Assembly: GCA_016936355.1 (NCBI GenBank)
Contig: JAFGYB010000001.1
Span: forward strand, 62,001 to 126,000
Source of the DNA: Bacteroidales bacterium
GTDB lineage: Bacteria; Bacteroidota; Bacteroidia; Bacteroidales; F082
Length of the DNA: 64,000 nt
Reading direction: 5' to 3'
The position numbers and the translations under genes are program-made. Under the pieces are notes generated by a model that searched no databases, was not told where the DNA came from, and saw only the letters and a list, made by a program, of their open reading frames with translations. Shown here in pieces: positions 51,789 to 60,199 of this stretch (position 1 is the stretch's first letter; each line of letters opens with the position of its first letter).

Positions 51789-53075
51789 TCAGCATTTTTC
51801 GTACATTTTCCATTTCTCCCGGATTTCCTCCAGACACAGATTCCCGATACTGCCTTCGTGTGTGTATTGAATGTTCTTTTGCGGACTAAAACTTCCGTCC
51901 GTCAACTCCTTCCCTACCTTTTTATAGGCATCACGGAAGGGCATCCCGTTTAATACCAGCTGGTTGGCCGTTTCCACACTGAATAAAGGATCATACATTT
52001 TTTGCTCCAGTATATCAGGTGTAGGCTGAGCTTCTGGTAATATGTCACACAAGACCGTCAGATTTTCTTTTACTTCTTCTACAGAACGCATTAAACTTTC
52101 TTTTAATAGCTGGAAATCACGATGATAACCACTGGTTAGGTTGTTGGTCATCAGAATAATCTCAGCCGGAAGGCTTTGAATTTTGTTGCTCCGACCGCGA
52201 AGAAGTTCAAATACATCAGGATTTTGTTTGTGCGGCATGATGCTCGAACCGGTGGTGAATTCCCTGGGAAAACTCAGAAAACCAAAGTTGGGGCTCATAT
52301 ACAAAATAATATCCGAGGCCATCTTCGACAGCGTACCCGACACAGATGCTAGCGCAAAAGCAAGCGTTTTTTCCAGTTTTCCACGGCTCATTTGGGCAGC
52401 AACAGCGTTATATTTTAATATTTTAAACCCCATTAGTTCAGTTGTATAGCTTCGATCCACCGGGAAACTGGTTCCATAACCGGCTGCCGAGCCCAGTGGG
52501 TTCTGATCGGCTACCTGTGCAACTGTTTCCAACAGAATCAAGTCATCAATCATGCTTTCGGCATACGAAGAGAACCACATTCCGAACGACGACGGCATAG
52601 CCATTTGCAAATGGGTATAACCCGGCAGTAGCACTGTTTTGTGTTTTTCAGCGAGTTGCAGCAGAGTATCAAATAACCGGTACATGACCGTTTTGATTTG
52701 CTTGATTTCTTCTTTTACATACAAATGCAGCGCCACCAGCACCTGATCGTTGCGCGAGCGGGCTGTGTGGATTTTTTTCCCGGCATCACCCGTATTTTCC
52801 GTTAGCAGGTATTCAATTTTACTGTGCATGTCTTCAAATCCCTCTTCAATGACAAAAGAACCGGCTTCAATGGACTGTTGGATTTCGTCCAGCGTTGTAA
52901 TCAGTTTGTCCAGTTCTTCCTGAGAAAGAACATCGATCTTTTGCAGCATCTGTGCATGGGCCTTGCTGGCCTGTACATCGTATTTTGCTAGTTTCAGGTC
53001 CAGAATCCGGTCGTTCCCGACGGTGAATTTTTCCACCCATTGTGCGGCTGAATAGCCTTTGTCCCAGAGTTTCAT
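51789..53075 (-). CDS. argH: Argininosuccinate lyase
   Basis: Splits argininosuccinate into arginine and fumarate, the final step of arginine synthesis. A 428-residue member of the fumarase/aspartase superfamily. The signature GSSIMPHKQNPD is present, as are TARSRNDQV and the TH of LLPGYTHLQMA, whose His is part of the active site. Last gene of the arginine operon, 23 bp after the argE-like gene. The family is usually about 450-460 residues, so this is slightly short but complete at both ends. Confidence 0.96.
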   Translation of the reverse strand: MKLWDKGYSAAQWVEKFTVGNDRILDLKLAKYDVQASKAHAQMLQKIDVLSQEELDKLITTLDEIQQSIEAGSFVIEEGFEDMHSKIEYLLTENTGDAGKKIHTARSRNDQVLVALHLYVKEEIKQIKTVMYRLFDTLLQLAEKHKTVLLPGYTHLQMAMPSSFGMWFSSYAESMIDDLILLETVAQVADQNPLGSAAGYGTSFPVDRSYTTELMGFKILKYNAVAAQMSRGKLEKTLAFALASVSGTLSKMASDIILYMSPNFGFLSFPREFTTGSSIMPHKQNPDVFELLRGRSNKIQSLPAEIILMTNNLTSGYHRDFQLLKESLMRSVEEVKENLTVLCDILPEAQPTPDILEQKMYDPLFSVETANQLVLNGMPFRDAYKKVGKELTDGSFSPQKNIQYTHEGSIGNLCLEEIREKWKMYEKC

Positions 53076-53098
53076 TGTTTAAAATTTAGGATTACTAA

Positions 53099-54160
53099 TT
53101 ACAGGATTTCTTTTAAAATATTGATATACAAACTGATTCCTTCCTCCAGTTCATTCAGAAAAATGAATTCATCGGCCTGATGCGATCGCTTGGAATCACC
53201 GGGGCCCATTTTAAGTGAAGGACACGAAAGTACGGATTGATCAGAAAGAGTGGGAGATCCGTAGGTTTCCCTCCCCCACTTTTTCCCCGCTTTGACGATC
53301 GGATGTCCGGGATCAATAAATGAAGGATTCAAATGGAACGAACGGGCCACCATGTTGCTTTGAGTATGCTGCTGGATAAACTCAAAGAGTTCCTCATTCC
53401 GATAGTGTTCGTTTACCCGGATGTCCACCACAAAATGACATTCAGCAGGTACCACATTATGCGCTGACCCCGCATTGATTTGGGTTACCGTCATCTTTAC
53501 CTTCCCCAGTAAGGGCGACTCCTTGGGAAATGTATACTTTCTGAACCAGTTGATGTCGTCCAGCGCGTTGTAAATGGCGTTATCTGTATTCGTATGTGCT
53601 GCATGGCCGGCAATGCCTGGAGCATATCCGTCCAGCACCAGCAGCCCTTTTTCGGCAATAGCCATCTGCATTTGTGTGGGTTCTCCCACGAGGGCAAAAC
53701 TGAGTTCAGGCAATTCCTGCAACAGGCTGTTCAAACCGTTGGGACCCGAGCTTTCTTCCTCACCTGTTGCTGCCATAACCAGATTGTACCTCAGATGGGG
53801 TTTGTCATAAAAATAAACAAAGGTGCTGAGCAATGAAACCAGGGAGGCACCGGCATCGTTGCTGCCCAGGCCATACAATTTACCGTTTTCAATTTGTGCC
53901 TGGTAGGGATTGCGGCTGTACCCGGTATTGGGCAGAACCGTATCATGGTGCGAATTGAGCAGGATTGTCGGTTGGGCCGGATCAAAATATTTGTTCAAAG
54001 CCCATACGTTGTTGTGGGTTAAGAAAGAACTGATTCCCTGTTTCTCCAGCCAATTCCGTATCAGTTGTGCTGTGGGTTCCTCTTCTCCGGAAAGCGACGG
54101 AGTTTCTATCAACTTTTTCAGCAGATCCAGCGCAAAGTTGTAGCTGTTTTTATTTTGCAT
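53099..54160 (-). CDS. argE: Acylornithine/acylcitrulline deacylase, M20 family (ArgE-like)
   Basis: A 353-residue metallopeptidase of the M20 family. Zinc-binding motifs: NSHHDTVLPN near 68-77, GLGSNDAGASLVSL near 97-110 and TGEEESSGPNGL near 131-142. Its place in the operon shows a role in removing the acyl group from an arginine precursor. Whether the substrate is N-acetylornithine or an N-acylcitrulline (as in Bacteroidota that use N-acyl-ornithine carbamoyltransferase) cannot be told here, as the carbamoyltransferase is outside the window. It lies 6 bp after argB. Confidence 0.88.
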   Translation of the reverse strand: MQNKNSYNFALDLLKKLIETPSLSGEEEPTAQLIRNWLEKQGISSFLTHNNVWALNKYFDPAQPTILLNSHHDTVLPNTGYSRNPYQAQIENGKLYGLGSNDAGASLVSLLSTFVYFYDKPHLRYNLVMAATGEEESSGPNGLNSLLQELPELSFALVGEPTQMQMAIAEKGLLVLDGYAPGIAGHAAHTNTDNAIYNALDDINWFRKYTFPKESPLLGKVKMTVTQINAGSAHNVVPAECHFVVDIRVNEHYRNEELFEFIQQHTQSNMVARSFHLNPSFIDPGHPIVKAGKKWGRETYGSPTLSDQSVLSCPSLKMGPGDSKRSHQADEFIFLNELEEGISLYINILKEIL

Positions 54161-54166
54161 GATAAT

Positions 54167-54952
54167 TTATTTTGAATCTAAAATTAACCGGGTACACACA
54201 CTGGAATCGCTGGTCAAAACAGCTGGATTACCAATCTTAACAGAATGAACATTTCGTTTCAATGCTTCGAAACCATTGTGCAGTTTAGGCAACATACCGT
54301 TCAGAAACTGTCCCTTATTTTTTCCTTCTTCAAAACCTTTCCAATTCAGTTTTTCCAGAACTGATTCATCGTTATTGATGTTACTCAGAACTCCTTTTTT
54401 CTCAAAAATATAAATCAGTTCGGTTTGATAAATGGAACTTAATCCGGCCCCCAATTCTGATGCAATGGTATCGGCATTGGTATTCAATAAGTGACCGGAA
54501 CCATCGTGTGTGATAGCACTGAAAACGGGCGCAAGTCCCTGTTCCATTAACATTGAAATCCATTGGCTGTTTACCTTTTTTACATCCCCTACCCAACCGT
54601 AATCGGTTTCCTTCACCGGTCTTTTTTCGGAGACAATGGTATTGGCATCGGCCCCCGAGAGTCCCACCGCCTGACAGCCCCTATGTTGTAATTGGACTAC
54701 CAGATTTTTGTTGATCCAACCGGCATATACCATGGTCACAATCCGAAGATCTTCTTCCGATGTAATCCTTCTTCCTTGGTGCATTTGTGGTATTATTCCC
54801 AGCTTCCGGCTGAGTTCACTGGCCAGTTTACCTCCGCCATGCACCAGTATTTTGGGGCCATTCATAGCGGAAAAATTATCCAGGACGTGATCCAAATCTG
54901 ATTCAGAATCGAGAATAGTACCACCGATTTTTACAATTTTGAGCTTTTTCAT
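54167..54952 (-). CDS. argB: Acylglutamate kinase (ArgB)
   Basis: A 261-residue amino acid kinase. KIGGTILDSESDL at the start is the phosphate-binding Lys-Gly-Gly motif, LVHGGGKLASEL near 36 the GGGK motif, and VGLSGADANTI near 96 binds substrate. It phosphorylates N-acetylglutamate, or N-succinylglutamate as known in some Bacteroides. There is no N-terminal extension of the type linked to arginine feedback inhibition in longer ArgB proteins, so enzyme-level feedback may be absent (inference). That makes the leader-based control upstream more relevant. It lies 14 bp after argD. Confidence 0.93.
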   Translation of the reverse strand: MKKLKIVKIGGTILDSESDLDHVLDNFSAMNGPKILVHGGGKLASELSRKLGIIPQMHQGRRITSEEDLRIVTMVYAGWINKNLVVQLQHRGCQAVGLSGADANTIVSEKRPVKETDYGWVGDVKKVNSQWISMLMEQGLAPVFSAITHDGSGHLLNTNADTIASELGAGLSSIYQTELIYIFEKKGVLSNINNDESVLEKLNWKGFEEGKNKGQFLNGMLPKLHNGFEALKRNVHSVKIGNPAVLTSDSSVCTRLILDSK

Positions 54953-54966
54953 TTTGCAGCATATGT

Positions 54967-56103
54967 TTACTTTTCGGACAATACCCGCATCAGTGCTTCA
55001 TGGAAAATAGTAATCTGTTCTTCACTGATGTTGAGTGGCGGAAGAATACGCATCAGGTTGGGATTTGTTGATGATCCCGTCAGGATATGATGTTCCAACA
55101 ACAGTTTCTTACGTAATTCCTGAACCGGGAACCCCAATTCAATCCCCAACATCAGCCCTTTGCCCTTGATCTTTTTGATGGGAGCAATGTTCAGCAATGC
55201 ACTTTTCAGGTACGCGCTTACTTTGTTCACATTTTCTATGATGTCTTCCTGTTCCATCACATCCAATACTGCAAGACCTGCAGCACAGGCCAACGGATTG
55301 CCCCCAAAAGTGGTTCCCAGCATACCGTACTCGTTATTAATTTCAGGACTGATCAATACCCCTGCAACAGGGAAGCCGTTGCCCATCCCTTTGGCTACGG
55401 TAATCAAATCAGGACGAATGCCGGCATACTGATGGGCAAAAAACTTTCCCGAACGGCCATATCCGCTCTGTATTTCATCCAGAATCAATAAGACATCATG
55501 CTGCTTCGTTAGTTCCGAAAGGGTCTTTAAAAAGGATTCGGATGGCATATCCAGTCCTCCAACTCCCTGAATGCCCTCTACAATCACAGCGCAAACATCC
55601 TTCCCTGAAAGGGCATTCTGCATGGCCTTTTTATCGTTCAATTCCAAAAATTCTACTTCAAAGCCGTCTTTGTTCAAAGGAGCCGACAACTTGGGGGCAT
55701 CGGTTACCGAAACGGCTGCAGATGTTCGGCCGTGGAAGCTCTTTTTGAATGCGACCACTTTTTTCTTCCCGGTTTGAAATGAAGCCAGTTTCAATGCATT
55801 TTCGTTGGCTTCAGCGCCCGAATTACAGAGGAACAGATTATAATCCGGATAACCGGAAATCTTTCCCAATTGCATTGCAAATGCCTCTTGTATGGGAAGT
55901 TGCACTGAGTTGGAATAAAAAGCCAGCTTCTGTAGCTGCTCGGTCAGCTTCTGAACATAATGCGGATGAGTATGACCGATTGAAATAACACCGTGGCCCC
56001 CGTAAAGATCCAGATACTGCGTGCCGTCCGATCCGTAAACATAGACCCCACCTGCCTTCACAAGCTCTATGTCAAAACGGGAATAAACATCAAATAATTT
56101 CAT
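54967..56103 (-). CDS. argD: Acylornithine aminotransferase
   Basis: A 378-residue class III PLP aminotransferase. It makes N-acylornithine from the N-acylglutamate semialdehyde, with glutamate as amino donor. Visible motifs: NSGAEANENALKLA near 97, LILDEIQSGYGRSGKF near 211 with the PLP-ring Asp, and VAKGMGNGFPVA near 237 with the Schiff-base Lys. The length is a little under the usual 390-400, with both ends intact. It stands 13 bp after argC and 14 bp before argB. Confidence 0.95.
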   Translation of the reverse strand: MKLFDVYSRFDIELVKAGGVYVYGSDGTQYLDLYGGHGVISIGHTHPHYVQKLTEQLQKLAFYSNSVQLPIQEAFAMQLGKISGYPDYNLFLCNSGAEANENALKLASFQTGKKKVVAFKKSFHGRTSAAVSVTDAPKLSAPLNKDGFEVEFLELNDKKAMQNALSGKDVCAVIVEGIQGVGGLDMPSESFLKTLSELTKQHDVLLILDEIQSGYGRSGKFFAHQYAGIRPDLITVAKGMGNGFPVAGVLISPEINNEYGMLGTTFGGNPLACAAGLAVLDVMEQEDIIENVNKVSAYLKSALLNIAPIKKIKGKGLMLGIELGFPVQELRKKLLLEHHILTGSSTNPNLMRILPPLNISEEQITIFHEALMRVLSEK

Positions 56104-56116
56104 GGTGTGATTGTTT

Positions 56117-57094
56117 TTAAAAATAGTTGGCTTTCAATGAGAGCCCTTTATCCTGTGGAAATCCAACCATCAGGTTCATATTCTCTACGGCCTGACCGGC
56201 TGCTCCTTTCAGTAAATTATCTATGGCCACCGTAACCAGCGCTTTGCCATTGATCTTTTCCACATGAACCAAACCGTAATTGGAGTTTACCACCTGTTTC
56301 ATGTGGATGGGATTTGCACTGACAAAGGTGAAAGGAGCATGCTGATAATAACCTTGATACAATTTGTTCAGTTCCTCATCACTTAGTTCTATTTCTGTGT
56401 ACAGCGAAATGAAGATGCCCCGGGTAAAGTCACCGCGGACGGGAATGAAATTCAGCTCCTGATCAAATTCCGGCTGGAGTGTTTTCACCGTTTCACCGAT
56501 TTCACCCAGATGCTGATGCACAAAAGGTTTGTACACCGAAATATTATTGTTCCGCCAGCTAAAATGAGTGGTTTCGGCAAACTGATTTCCCGCTCCGGTG
56601 GAACCGGTGATACCATAAATATGCACACTGCCGGTCAGTTTGTGATCAGAAGCCAGCGGCAGCAATCCAAGCTGAATGGCCGTGGCAAAACAACCCGGAT
56701 TGGCAATGGAATCAGATTGACTGATCAGACTTTTATTTGTTTCGGGAAGTCCGTAAACAAATGTCCGTTCGGCAAACTGTGCGTCTTCATTCAACCGAAA
56801 ATCGTTGCTCATGTCAATGATTTTGGTGCCACCGGAAACAGGATTCTCCTGAAGCCATTTTTTTGATAACCCGTGCCCCAGGCTCAAAAACAGTACATCT
56901 GTATCTTTCAATACCTGATCTGTAAATTTCATTTCTGTAGCAGCAAACAGATCCTGATGCACCTCACTGATCTTTTTTCCGGCCTGAGAATGACTGTATA
57001 CAAAGCTCAGTTCCGTTTCAGGATGCTGCAACAGCAACCGAATGAGCTCACCTGCCACATAACCCGTACCGCCTATGATACCTACTTTAATCAT
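56117..57094 (-). CDS. argC: N-acyl-gamma-glutamyl-phosphate reductase
   Basis: A 325-residue NADPH-dependent reductase. GGTGYVAGELIRLLLQHPE at the N-terminus is the NADP-binding Rossmann motif, NPGCFAT near 132 has the catalytic Cys, and HQHLGEIGE near 193 lies in the substrate region. It converts the acylglutamyl phosphate to its semialdehyde. The start overlaps the argG stop by 4 bp, so the two are translationally coupled. Confidence 0.96.
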   Translation of the reverse strand: MIKVGIIGGTGYVAGELIRLLLQHPETELSFVYSHSQAGKKISEVHQDLFAATEMKFTDQVLKDTDVLFLSLGHGLSKKWLQENPVSGGTKIIDMSNDFRLNEDAQFAERTFVYGLPETNKSLISQSDSIANPGCFATAIQLGLLPLASDHKLTGSVHIYGITGSTGAGNQFAETTHFSWRNNNISVYKPFVHQHLGEIGETVKTLQPEFDQELNFIPVRGDFTRGIFISLYTEIELSDEELNKLYQGYYQHAPFTFVSANPIHMKQVVNSNYGLVHVEKINGKALVTVAIDNLLKGAAGQAVENMNLMVGFPQDKGLSLKANYF

Positions 57095-58278
57095 GAGTTT
57101 ACGTTTTGATAAATTTTCACCGGATTGGCCAGGATTCTCACAAAACCTTTTACGTCCTCCCCGGTCCAGGCTTTGTTTACCTCACCGTAATGTCCGAATT
57201 CGGGATTCATCAGATCATGTTTGGATTCGATTCCCAGTATTTCAAAACGATAAGGATGTAAAGTTATATTTACATCGCCTGTCACATTAATCTGACTATC
57301 CGAAAGAAAAGTTTCAATATTTCTCATCACCGGATCAAAAAACTGTGCTTCGTGCAGGAACATGCCGTACCAGTTGGCCAGCTGATCTTTCCAGTAAAGT
57401 TGCCACTTGGTCAACGTATGTTTTTCCAGCACATGGTGGGCTTTTATTAAAATGCTTGCAGCGGCTGCTTCAAAACCGATTCGTCCTTTGATACCGATAA
57501 TGGTATCCCCGGTGTGCATATCGCGTCCGATGGCATAAGGAGTTGCCCAGGCTTCAATTTGCTGAATGATTTGTACGGGATTCATTTCGCTACCATTCAA
57601 TGCTGCTGGCTGGCCTTTTTCAAAAGAAAGGGCAAAGGTTTTGGGTTCACTTTCTGAAAGTAAATTTCCATAAGCTTCTTCCGGCAGCGGCTGATCAGAG
57701 GTCAGGGTTTCTTTGCCTCCTATACTGGTACCCCAGAGCCCTTTGTTTAGTGAATACTTGGATACCTGACTGTCAATTTTAATGCCGTGTTGCAATAAAT
57801 AGTCCGTTTCAGCCTGACGCGAGAGTTGTTGATCGCGAATGGGAGTCAGTATCTCCAGTTCGGGAGCAAGCAGTTGGAAAACCAGGTCGAAACGGACCTG
57901 ATCGTTTCCTGCTCCTGTGCTGCCATGGGCGATGTAGTCGGCTCCGATGGACAGTGCATATTCGGCCAGGGCTTTGGCCTGATACACCCGTTCGGCACTG
58001 ACGGACAAAGGATACGTGCTGTTTTTCAACACGTTGCCAAATATTAGATACTTGATAATGTTCTCATAAAAATCAGTGGTTCCGTCAATGGTTTTGTGTG
58101 ACTTCGCCCCCAGCTTATAGGCATGTGCTTCAATTTGTTGCTCTTCTACCGGCTTGAAACCACCGGTATTTACGATGGCTGTATGTACTTCCAGGTTTTG
58201 TTCGTGCATGAGGTACAACACACAATAGGATGTATCGAGTCCGCCACTGAAGGCCAACAATACTTTCTTCTTACTCAT
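57091..58278 (-). CDS. argG: Argininosuccinate synthase
   Basis: A 395-residue N-type ATP pyrophosphatase that joins citrulline and aspartate. The PP-loop AFSGGLDTSY is at 9-18, and AHGSTGAGNDQVRFD near 119 and YSLNKGLWG near 178 match the family. It comes second in the operon, before argC, although it acts late in the pathway. Overlaps the upstream GNAT gene and the downstream argC by 4 bp each, so three genes are tightly coupled. Confidence 0.97.
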   Translation of the reverse strand: MSKKKVLLAFSGGLDTSYCVLYLMHEQNLEVHTAIVNTGGFKPVEEQQIEAHAYKLGAKSHKTIDGTTDFYENIIKYLIFGNVLKNSTYPLSVSAERVYQAKALAEYALSIGADYIAHGSTGAGNDQVRFDLVFQLLAPELEILTPIRDQQLSRQAETDYLLQHGIKIDSQVSKYSLNKGLWGTSIGGKETLTSDQPLPEEAYGNLLSESEPKTFALSFEKGQPAALNGSEMNPVQIIQQIEAWATPYAIGRDMHTGDTIIGIKGRIGFEAAAASILIKAHHVLEKHTLTKWQLYWKDQLANWYGMFLHEAQFFDPVMRNIETFLSDSQINVTGDVNITLHPYRFEILGIESKHDLMNPEFGHYGEVNKAWTGEDVKGFVRILANPVKIYQNVNS

Positions 58279-58943
58279 TTGTTCAGTAGTTTATTAATTT
58301 TCGGGTAGACAGAATTTCTCAATTGCGATACCTGCTTTTGGTTTGCCAGGAAGGTCTTGAACTGTTTCCAGCGAATGGCACCCCGTTTTTCCTTTTCTTT
58401 GGGTAACGTAGCCAGGTTTGCCGGATCGCAAACCATGCCCGTACAAAGACACATTTTGCGGTCCGTACGCAGCAGAATATCATAGTTGGAACAGCTCTGG
58501 CATCCTTTCCAAAACGTTTCATCCTCAGTTAGTTCAGAAAATGTAACCGGCTTATATCCCAGTTCCGAGTTGATTTTCATAACGGCCAGACTGGTAGTAA
58601 TTCCGAATATTTTGGCTTCCGGAAATTTCTTTCGCGACAACTCAAATGTCTTGGTCTTGATTTGCTTGGCGAGCCCGGTCTGACGGTATTCAGGATGGAC
58701 GATCAGTCCGGAGTTGGCGACAAACTTATGTCCCTGCCAACTCTCAATGTAACAAAACCCCACAACCCTTCCGTCATCCAGAGCAATGACAGACTTACCT
58801 TCCAGAATTTTTTTGCTGATGTATTCCGGTTCCCGTTTGGCAATACCGGTCCCCCGCAAACGGGCAGCATCTTCAATCATGGTGCACACTTGCTGTGCAT
58901 ATTTTTCGTGACTTTCATCAGCCACGACAACAATTACCTGCAT
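58275..58943 (-). CDS. GNAT acyltransferase heading the arginine operon (probable N-acylglutamate synthase), with cysteine-rich tail
   Basis: A 222-residue protein. The GNAT core spans about 1-140 with the acyl-CoA loop HPEYRQTGLAKQI near 83-95 (RQTGLA replaces the usual QxxGxG/A). After it comes an unusual tail with Cys148 and Cys151 (KGCQSC), Cys165, Cys167 and Cys172 (MCLCTGMVC), which could hold zinc or an iron-sulfur cluster. No argA or argJ-type gene is in the operon, and this gene is first and overlaps argG by 4 bp. It is therefore the natural candidate for acylation of glutamate (inference). Start ATG 58941-58943 is followed by MQVIVVV. It is preceded by the arginine-rich leader. Confidence 0.78.
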   Translation of the reverse strand: MQVIVVVADESHEKYAQQVCTMIEDAARLRGTGIAKREPEYISKKILEGKSVIALDDGRVVGFCYIESWQGHKFVANSGLIVHPEYRQTGLAKQIKTKTFELSRKKFPEAKIFGITTSLAVMKINSELGYKPVTFSELTEDETFWKGCQSCSNYDILLRTDRKMCLCTGMVCDPANLATLPKEKEKRGAIRWKQFKTFLANQKQVSQLRNSVYPKINKLLNK

Positions 58944-59018
58944 ATCAGTAATTATTAAAATGAATTTATGTAAATAAAATAATAGGAAAGGCAGAGTACG
59001 TAACTCCGCGAGAATAAA
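58944..59018 (-). promoter_or_regulatory. Putative attenuator hairpin region before the arginine operon
   Basis: On the minus strand, GCGGAGT (59009-59003) pairs with ACTCTGC (58997-58991), 7 pairs with one G-U and a 5-nt loop. A U-rich tract from 58990 downwards (CTTTCCTATTATTTTATTT) follows. The left arm, extended to TCGCGGAGT (59011-59003), can instead pair over 9 bases with ACTCTGCGA at 59099-59091 inside the leader ORF. Two exclusive structures are the mark of an attenuator. The stem is short, so terminator strength is uncertain. Confidence 0.55.
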
Positions 59019-59129
59019 TTACGCCCTAAGGCGCCTAAGTCGCCTGTTGGCAGAAATGGAATAACACAGCAATTCCGATACGAACGAATATCGCAGAGTA
59101 GAATGGATTGATGTGTTTGTTTGTTTCAT
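59019..59129 (-). CDS. Arginine-rich leader peptide of the arginine operon
   Basis: A 36-codon ORF on the minus strand, starting ATG 59129 (MKQTNTSIHSTLRYSF) and ending NRRLRRLRA-TAA at 59019. Five of the last eight codons are Arg (AGG, CGA, AGG, CGC, AGG, at 59045-59025). A TACTTTTG -7 box ends 8 nt before the ATG, so the ORF is the first thing transcribed and nearly leaderless. The first structural gene of the arginine operon starts 75 nt after its stop. Ribosome stalling at the Arg codons when arginyl-tRNA is scarce is the expected control, by analogy with trp, his and leu leaders of enteric bacteria. The direction of the switch is not proven by inspection. Confidence 0.62.
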   Translation of the reverse strand: MKQTNTSIHSTLRYSFVSELLCYSISANRRLRRLRA

Positions 59130-59137
59130 GATGGCAA

Positions 59138-59145
59138 CAAAAGTA
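59138..59145 (-). promoter_or_regulatory. -7 promoter element of the arginine operon
   Basis: CAAAAGTA reads TACTTTTG on the minus strand. It ends 8 nt before the leader ATG at 59129 and about 190 nt before the first structural gene. No TTG was found at the -33 position. Confidence 0.55.
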
Positions 59146-59246
59146 TTGCTTTCTTAATAACCGTGAATCATTTTTACGATTTTTTTTCGAAAACGGAATT
59201 CTTGGCCGGTACAGAATGAAGCAGATTGCTTGATTGAAAACGATTG

Positions 59247-60065
59247 TTATAAGTTTGATTCAAACATGTCCGGAACAAAAGTTTGTTCCTGCATGGGAGG
59301 CCTTACATAGCCTTTTTCGGGCTTTCTAGGTGTTAATTCAATGGATTTGGCAGGAAGTTCTTTATAAGGAATCATGCTCAGAAAATGATGGATTGTATTG
59401 AGATGAGCTCTCTTCTTGTCGTCGGCTTCCACTACATACCAGGGGGCAATTTTGGTATCGGTATAGGCAAACATTTCGTCTTTGGCTTTGGAATATTCTA
59501 CCCATTTGTCCCTTGATTTCAAATCCATCAAACTGAATTTCCATCGTTTGGTCGGGTCATTCAACCGTTTCTGGAAGCGTTTTTCCTGTTCTTCCTCACT
59601 GACGGAAAACCAGTATTTAAGAAGGATAATGCCCGAACGGATGAGCATACGCTCGAAATAAGGACAGGAACGCAGGAAATCCCAGTACTCATCATCGGTA
59701 CAAAATCCCATAACCCGTTCGATTCCTGCCCTGTTGTACCAGGAACGATCAAATAAGACGACTTCACCTGCAGCCGGCAAATGAGGGACATAGCGTTGAA
59801 AATACCACTGGGTTTTTTCTTTTTCAGTGGGAACACCCAGCGCCACAACCCTTACCACACGCGGGTTGAGCGTTGCAGTCATTCGCTTGATGACACCGCT
59901 CTTTCCGGCGGTATCACGTCCTTCAAAAAGAACCACAACCTTCAGTCCTTTGGCTTTCACCCATTCCTGAAGCTTTACCAGTTCTACCTGAAGTTTGTCT
60001 AATTCCTTAACAAAAACTTCATTTCTTAATTTGCCGTGTTTGTTCAGAATTTTTACCTCTTCCAT
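59247..60065 (-). CDS. ppk2: Polyphosphate kinase 2 family protein
   Basis: A 272-residue cytoplasmic kinase that uses polyphosphate to phosphorylate nucleotides, or the reverse. Walker A FEGRDTAGKS at 48-57, Walker B VLFDRSWYNRAG with Asp106, and the lid KRLNDPTKRWKFSLMD near 183. The single-domain size fits class I PPK2 (nucleoside diphosphate to triphosphate). The frame is open to 60098, but a -7 box at 60082-60089 lies there; ATG 60065 (MEEVKILNKHGKL) is therefore chosen. It diverges from the E1 gene and is followed by about 100 bp without a clear terminator before the arginine promoter. Confidence 0.95.
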   Translation of the reverse strand: MEEVKILNKHGKLRNEVFVKELDKLQVELVKLQEWVKAKGLKVVVLFEGRDTAGKSGVIKRMTATLNPRVVRVVALGVPTEKEKTQWYFQRYVPHLPAAGEVVLFDRSWYNRAGIERVMGFCTDDEYWDFLRSCPYFERMLIRSGIILLKYWFSVSEEEQEKRFQKRLNDPTKRWKFSLMDLKSRDKWVEYSKAKDEMFAYTDTKIAPWYVVEADDKKRAHLNTIHHFLSMIPYKELPAKSIELTPRKPEKGYVRPPMQEQTFVPDMFESNL

Positions 60066-60081
60066 AACCTGTTGTTTTTTA

Positions 60082-60089
60082 CAAATATA
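60082..60089 (-). promoter_or_regulatory. -7 promoter element for ppk2
   Basis: CAAATATA reads TATATTTG on the minus strand, 16 nt before ATG 60065. It decides that start over the longer frame. Confidence 0.55.
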
Positions 60090-60199
60090 AGATTTCATTA
60101 GTTACAAGAATCGTTAAATAAATTTAATAACAATGGCTTATTCAGTAATTTGCATCAGTAAGGGGGCAAGGCATACTTATTTAGAATCGTTATAATTGT

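Follow-up and report, generated by a model that had tools for sequence, protein, structure and literature searches.

A candidate cis-acting arginine sensor, composed of a leader peptide and two hairpins, upstream of the GNAT-argG operon in Bacteroidota

Bacterial arginine synthesis is usually pictured as controlled by ArgR. Sensing of arginine by a translated leader has been described for the speF gene of Salmonella where, as reported, pausing of the ribosome at arginine codons lets a hairpin downstream of the leader stop codon form, and pausing at the stop codon prevents it (PMC6386406). In Flavobacterium psychrophilum clues were noted for leader-peptide attenuation upstream of amino-acid operons, arginine not being named in the accessible part of that source (PMC9723704). 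The present analysis concerns a stretch of 64,000 nucleotides (nt) from a Bacteroidales bacterium (contig JAFGYB010000001.1, positions 62,001 to 126,000; referred to below as the window), in which a short open reading frame (ORF) ending in clustered arginine codons and two hairpins, B and C, precede an operon of the order GNAT-argG-argC-argD-argB-argE/dapE-like-argH on the minus strand. It is proposed from sequence comparison, with a probability of about 0.6, that the leader peptide and the two hairpins form a cis-acting arginine sensor which controls this GNAT-argGCDBEH operon. The arginine leader peptide very likely takes part in controlling the operon in cis, and a switch at hairpin C would be the best current reading of its action.

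The arginine leader and its spread

The GNAT gene was searched for in 60 genomes, including 12 of the genus of the window, and was found in 23 of them and in 9/12 of the genus. An earlier note on this DNA had claimed an arginine-codon leader peptide before an arginine operon and had proposed a comparison with close relatives; in that comparison a short ORF of 34-37 codons with arginine codons clustered at its end occupies the same place in 9/9 genus genomes with GNAT, and argG lies near GNAT in all nine. A wider first set was obtained by scanning GTDB genomes with the genus GNAT alignment, which yielded 435 relatives, the best 80 of which were used as named loci (Bacteroidales, Fulvivirga and other Cytophagales, Saprospirales, Flavobacteriales, Balneola, Rhodothermia and Ignavibacteriae). 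Seven of the 80 are genomes already among the genus members, and the set holds 82 distinct loci. In 69/80 named loci argG is present in the available stretch, one of the 11 others having almost no downstream DNA.

An arginine leader was defined as an upstream ATG ORF with at least three arginines in its last 12 codons, a criterion which overlooks the two-arginine leaders of most genus members. Such a leader stands upstream of GNAT in 41/82 loci, compared to 3.0 in dinucleotide shuffles and six on the reverse strand, and with at least four arginines the count is 22/82 as against 0.6 and 0, respectively; in the same test of the 82 loci lysine, histidine, leucine, serine, proline and glycine gave no comparable excess. 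The claim of an arginine leader is thereby borne out as conserved and exceeding chance. The second set was drawn from 395 Bacteroidia genomes, of which 133 have GNAT; with the window's own genome and G054 left out, 131 upstream regions were scored (29 + 102 loci), six of them sharing sequence with the first set. An arginine leader was found in 68/131 of these loci, and in 65/125 when the shared ones are left aside.

Leaders of other appearance were noticed in two groups of the named loci. In the Balneola group (L080, L083, L087, L090, L095, L121) a very arginine-rich leader ending in RRIPRRR-stop stands before GNAT, with no match to the covariance model described below. In Ancylomarina and Marinifilaceae (L084, L088, L096, L097, L107), judged by eye, a conserved ORF of about 46 amino acids with an RLRLR stretch lies directly before GNAT and replaces the short arginine leader.

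Hairpins B and C and the position of the ribosome

The recurring pieces of the RNA are hairpin B, which covers the last arginine codon and the region of the stop codon, a U-rich linker and hairpin C. The stem of B is CCCC/GGGG in most relatives and CGCC/GGCG in the window. The hairpin pattern GCGGRGTTNCGTAYYCTGC occurs once each in 8/12 genus genomes, G007 carries a loop variant, and the three genus genomes with neither of them also give no GNAT match; within the genus the hairpin stem shows A-T to G-C exchanges. Compensatory changes in the hairpin arms, which the earlier note had named as a thing to look for, were indeed found, on both sides at 7/7 pairs of helix C. In the alignment concerned 98.4% of cells of helix C are paired, a percentage inflated because its 27 sequences were picked by eye from those passing a loop filter. 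For helix B the figure is lower (82.1%), and over the whole structure 46 double-changed cells were counted, where shuffles gave 12.0 and slid controls no more than 11.

With a covariance model linking hairpins B and C (R1), 38 matches of E 1 or lower were obtained in the window and the 80 loci (548 kb). Of these, 37 stand immediately before GNAT and for 35 the E value is below 0.001, most of the latter being seed members or close kin of seeds; the match in the window (58990-59036) has an E of 2.8e-13. Over 37 loci, examined for the element at argS, his, trp and ilv genes, the only match below E 1 was at a GNAT locus, L126, and none was at the his, trp, ilv or argS loci. Over the 395 class genomes matches were obtained in G000 and G162 only, and since at most 15 candidates per genome were scored, absence from the others means little. 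Arginine enrichment of the leader is also present in loci without R1. Hairpins with a UNYGY loop, the loop of hairpin C, occur within the last 170 nt before GNAT in 18/131 second-set loci (0.45 in shuffles) on many different stems, so the loop-and-stem element extends past the R1 group; the first set has 43 loci that were not on the by-eye list, and four of them have such a hairpin (0.40 in shuffles). Rfam gave no match at gathering in the window or in 12 loci, and none at E up to 10 for 58900-59200. On a GNAT tree of 96 rows, built with FastTree only, the 36 rows with leader and hairpins need nine changes, four of them forced by well-supported branches; this type is clustered on the tree, which does not establish one origin.

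Some further observations concern the same region. One family of Bacteroidia (L175, L176, L180, L184, L186, L188) has hairpins whose stems covary and whose apical loop, AGGUGAGUCC, is conserved but differs from UNYGY; this loop contains the Shine-Dalgarno-like AGGUGA, the hairpin lies 58-69 nt before GNAT, and it follows an arginine-rich leader in five of the six loci. In L081, L101, L111 and L122 the R1 element stands directly before GNAT with no argG within about 2.4-2.9 kb downstream, so the element may also head differently arranged operons. A frameshift at CCCCCC before the hairpin was dismissed on inspection, the frame relative to hairpin C not being conserved and CCCCCC being absent from the window. 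Pairing of loop C with the leader end (CGTAA/TTACG in the window), judged by eye, did not recur in several relatives.

The geometry was measured in 35 sequences, nine of them from the genus of the window. Hairpin C begins 6-12 nt after the leader stop codon in 32/35 and 14-17 nt after it in the other three. All 35 have an arginine codon in frame 26-29 nt ahead of hairpin C, the codon nearest to 27 nt being the one taken; because R1 links the two hairpins this spacing is partly imposed, the reading frame is not. In the window this codon is AGG 59036-59034, 27 nt before C, and L052, L085 and L089, which lack AGG at the base of B, have another arginine codon at equal distance. AGG makes up 71/119 of the arginine codons in the leaders of the 35 sequences, compared to 16/129 in nine genes of the window. 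In a thermodynamic estimate with an assumed ribosome footprint of 13 nt, the median probability of hairpin C is 0.98 without a ribosome, 0.98 with a ribosome on the arginine codon and 0.63 with a ribosome on the stop codon. The earlier note had found the polarity unclear, C lying so close behind the leader stop, and this doubt was justified, since it is a ribosome at the stop codon, not one at the arginine codons, that clashes with C.

The switch at hairpin C can be pictured as follows. Transcription would start just before the leader ATG. In the window the -7 promoter element TACTTTTG is 8 nt away from it, so a short or absent 5' untranslated region is expected; TANNTTTG, which we take to be the -7 box, was found 5-10 nt upstream of the ATG in 24/38 rows, farther off in three, and not found in 11. 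When arginyl-tRNA is scarce, the ribosome would pause on the arginine codons with hairpin B melted, hairpin C would be free to form and the operon would be read. When arginine is plentiful, the ribosome would reach the stop codon and cover the 5' arm of C while RNA polymerase passes. Expression would then be lowered by a step other than a U-tract terminator; the candidates are termination by Rho within the G-poor spacer, degradation of the RNA and the loss of a factor that binds hairpin C. We infer that charged tRNA-Arg is the signal. Such a scheme has the polarity that a biosynthetic operon needs and agrees with the published one for Salmonella speF. The spacer after C contains 18.5% C and 7.5% G, with C above G in 32/35, while the values are 19.5% and 15.6% upstream of 340 ORFs and 20.8% and 12.0% before the GNAT gene of 47 loci for which no hairpin C is listed; its poverty in G would suit Rho without showing Rho action.

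Several points weigh against this switch. The probabilities of C are estimates which depend on the assumed footprint. In L051 and L113 the stop codon, 17 nt before C, is too distant for occlusion, and C keeps a probability of 0.99 and 0.78 with a ribosome there; several others stay high as well, for example L071 and L079 (1.00), and in L052, L053 and L073 hairpin C is barely predicted even without a ribosome (0.03, 0.09 and 0.00). Hairpin B, together with the model by which the sequences were selected, accounts for some of the AGG bias and some of the spacing between the arginine codon and C. In the second set R1 reaches E below 0.001 in just 2/131 loci (L164, L197), most arginine leaders being without it, and a UNYGY hairpin or R1 accompanies a minority of arginine leaders, 16/68, compared to 5/63 of the other loci.

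Competing explanations

The earlier note had interpreted hairpin C with a following U-rich tract as a terminator whose first arm could instead pair over nine base pairs with ACTCTGCGA inside the leader, that is, as a switch of the trp kind. The hairpin has proved real in the sense that it covaries, but the U tract is not a general feature: at least six T in the 8 nt after C were found in 1/35 sequences (L045, from G007), the T content of these 8 nt equals that of the spacer (3.29 vs 3.34), and an intrinsic terminator at C is rejected for the other 34. The alternative pairing is strong in the window (-14.6 kcal/mol, none of 50 shuffles being as low) and also in L053 and L054, which are nearly identical to each other. 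In the nearest relative, with 24/50 shuffles as low, it does not exceed chance, nor does it overall, where duplex energies for a partner of the arm of C have a mean rank of 0.47, with 5/35 at rank 0.05 or lower (the window, L046, L053, L054 and L062, of which L046 and L062 pair at other positions). It was consequently rejected as a conserved antiterminator, notwithstanding a mild, unexplained excess in a cruder count of at least seven contiguous pairs with G-U allowed (16/35 vs 8.9 in shuffles). Moreover, C is predicted equally with and without a ribosome on the arginine codons. The genus itself supplies a comparison: its his leaders (HHHH, L127-L135), trp leaders (WWW, L146-L151) and Ile/Val/Leu-rich ilv leaders (L136-L144) have a hairpin with a U tract within the 320 nt upstream of the match in 9/9, 6/6 and 9/9 loci, whereas an equal 320 nt upstream holds a terminator-like match in 14/35 arginine leaders as against 24/24; the genome of the window gave no HisG match, and its his operon is therefore not in this comparison. 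No such leader was seen at argS in 10 loci inspected. Classical attenuation with a terminator and a competing antiterminator is thus improbable as the general mechanism, even though the arginine-codon leader itself, the pairing in the window and in L053/L054, the contiguous complements and the U tract of L045 all speak for it, as do L216 and L219, where a short arginine leader upstream of GNAT is followed by a strong, classical-looking U-tract terminator; at least one lineage may combine an arginine leader with ordinary attenuation. A small hairpin of the arginine codons (AGGCG/CGCCT) had also been noted, and it is the predicted minimum-energy fold of a 67-nt segment of the window, but in most relatives it is hairpin B, a little further towards the 3' end, that folds, and the same holds for the window if its upstream codons are omitted.

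The U-rich linker after B (61% T) leaves a terminator or an RNA polymerase pause at B as a rival. Hairpin B and the linker could be a weak intrinsic terminator which a ribosome stalled on the arginine codon at the base of B would block, with no antiterminator and with C as an accessory; direct occlusion of this kind is pyrBI-like. The arginine codon is in the proper place and the polarity is right, the paired part of B, folded locally, ends 10-14 nt before C in 20/35, and eight arginine leaders (out of 35) have a terminator-like match in the region from the last 10 codons of the leader to GNAT, the best one being B with its linker in seven of them. The remaining 27/35 have none there, the deficit over 320 nt counts against a terminator at B too, B mostly has 4-6 pairs before an interrupted U tract, and the conserved loop of C would be left unexplained, all of which makes this explanation unlikely. 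More room, within clear doubt, has to be given to the view that a trans-acting factor, either a protein or the ribosome itself, binds hairpin C by recognising the UNYGY loop, the leader governing exposure only or being secondary: the loop is kept while the stem varies, and the family with the AGGUGAGUCC loop shows the same on its own covarying stems in six loci. Read as U-NCG-Y, the loop resembles an arginine anticodon (NCG) or codon (CGY); mimicry of tRNA-Arg fits 33/35 sequences and was kept as a lead only, since the UAUGY variants (2/35, and more among the UNYGY-hairpin loci) break the arginine readings. UNCG-type loops are stable, and UNYGY also fits a loop kept merely for stability; we know of no binder of hairpin C. 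Arrest of the ribosome by the nascent peptide with free arginine or ornithine, like that of TnaC, SpeFL or the fungal arginine attenuator peptide, would suit the conserved leader length and the ending R-x(1-2)-RPPFGV or RPPSGV shared by seven of the nine genus peptides, RRLRA ending the two others (window and G007). Across the phylum, however, the C-termini differ widely (LRA, PLAGI, PRA, RLWA, PLLG, SRP), no conserved arrest sequence apart from arginine was found at this end of the leader, and hairpin B constrains the nucleotides there, so that nascent-peptide arrest is highly improbable. Finally, the AGGCCCC of hairpin B necessarily reads R-P in one frame, and the ORF might be incidental to an RNA structure, or the whole arrangement due to chance; with more arginine codons upstream of B and the enrichment persisting in loci without R1, this is scarcely credible.

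A regulator gene might take the place of the leader in other lineages. An ArgR gene is adjacent to GNAT in 10/131 second-set loci, none of which has an arginine leader, and the two together were seen in 0/131 (likewise 0, with ArgR in 10, among the 125 without first-set overlap). Among the loci without adjacent ArgR a leader is present in 68/121, compared to 4.5 expected, and about half of them lack it under the criterion used. No ArgR gene was found in the available stretch of the 80 named loci, and the Arg repressor domain PF02863 was found in 0/12 genus genomes, a single-contig genome included, while it was detected in 12/60 genomes searched and 8/14 controls. In short, an arginine leader precedes GNAT in roughly half of the Bacteroidia loci sampled, ArgR adjoins GNAT in a smaller share of them, and the two coincide in 0/131. 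As a tentative extension of the hairpin-C switch, possible though below even odds, the UNYGY loop, together with the AGGUGAGUCC loop of one family, may be a new RNA module which is recognised by a trans factor or the ribosome and turns the position of the leader ribosome into expression of the arginine operon, the leader module sitting in much of Bacteroidia where other lineages have an operon-head ArgR gene. The conserved hairpin and loop offer a defined target for mutational tests, and the presence in one genus of textbook-like his, trp and ilv leaders beside an arginine leader which is not so is a natural comparison of two sensor readouts.

The operon of the window and the described systems

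Every stretch named in the earlier note was located as described on the minus strand, and the features are collected in Table 1. The first gene of the operon encodes a GNAT-family acetyltransferase which is probably the N-acetylglutamate synthase of the arginine pathway. Of the window proteins, ArgC, ArgB and ArgH exceed their family cut-offs; for ArgG, ArgD and the deacylase the families given are the best-matching ones, below cut-off. The C-terminal part of the GNAT protein is rich in cysteine, with CxxC at 148-151 and CxC at 165-167, neither of which varies across the nine-row genus alignment. A sixth arginine codon (CGA) occurs earlier in the leader ORF, and the gene next to the leader on its upstream side encodes a polyphosphate kinase 2 (59247-60098).

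Table 1. Location of the leader, its RNA elements and the operon genes in the window
Feature	Position	Strand	Remark
-7 promoter element, Bacteroidota type, TACTTTTG	59138..59145	(-)	8 nt before leader ATG
Leader ORF, 36 codons + TAA, MKQTNTSIHSTLRYSFVSELLCYSISANRRLRRLRA	59019..59129	(-)	
Stretch of the leader in the 9-bp alternative pairing, ACTCTGCGA	59091..59099	(-)	
Arginine codon cluster AGG CGA (CTT) AGG CGC (CTT) AGG	59025..59045	(-)	
Small arginine-codon hairpin, arms AGGCG and CGCCT	59041..59045 and 59029..59033	(-)	
Hairpin B, GCGCC-TTAG-GGCGT	59021..59034	(-)	spans last codons and first base of stop codon
U-rich linker, leader stop to hairpin C	59010..59018	(-)	61% T over 35 sequences
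Hairpin C, GCGGAGT-UACGU-ACUCUGC	58991..59009	(-)	covarying stem and UNYGY loop
Arms of hairpin C, GCGGAGT and ACTCTGC	59003..59009 and 58991..58997	(-)	
G-poor spacer up to GNAT start	58944..58990	(-)	
GNAT-family acetyltransferase, first gene of operon	58275..58943	(-)	Acetyltransf_1 match over its cut-off
argG, argC, argD, argB, argE/dapE-like deacylase, argH	51789..58278	(-)	family matches

Among the open-access papers listed, none could be recognised by its title and the opening of its abstract as dealing with an arginine leader of Bacteroidota. The published systems that come nearest are compared here as far as the accessible parts of the cited reports describe them. With the ribosome-mediated transcription attenuators of trp, his and ilv operons the arginine leader shares an ORF with codons for the product amino acid before a biosynthetic operon; unlike them, it has no U-tract terminator at hairpin C in 34/35 sequences and no generally conserved antiterminator, and it has a conserved hairpin loop. 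The Bacteroid-trp RNA (RF01692) is likewise a Bacteroidota motif, probably cis-regulatory and named for trp (PMC2864571), whereas the arginine locus of the window matches no Rfam family. In Pseudomonas aeruginosa a leader peptide stands upstream of carA, a gene of arginine and pyrimidine synthesis, although both the phylum and the gene are different (PMC4997734). Leader-peptide arginine codons (AGA/AGG) sense arginine limitation by pausing in rbfL of Staphylococcus aureus, where an 8-residue peptide occludes the ribosome-binding site of rbf, so that the output is another one and does not concern arginine biosynthesis (PMC13009471). The orf34/speF leader of Salmonella has a leader ORF of 34 codons, arginine sensed by ribosome pausing at arginine codons, and a hairpin just past the leader stop codon which depends on ribosome position there and may do so here (PMC6386406). 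It differs in belonging to Gammaproteobacteria and controlling ornithine decarboxylase, in a long leader with RNase G and Rho steps, and in having its sensing arginine codons at positions 12 and 13 and not near the ORF end as here (PMC6386406); no homology is seen or expected.
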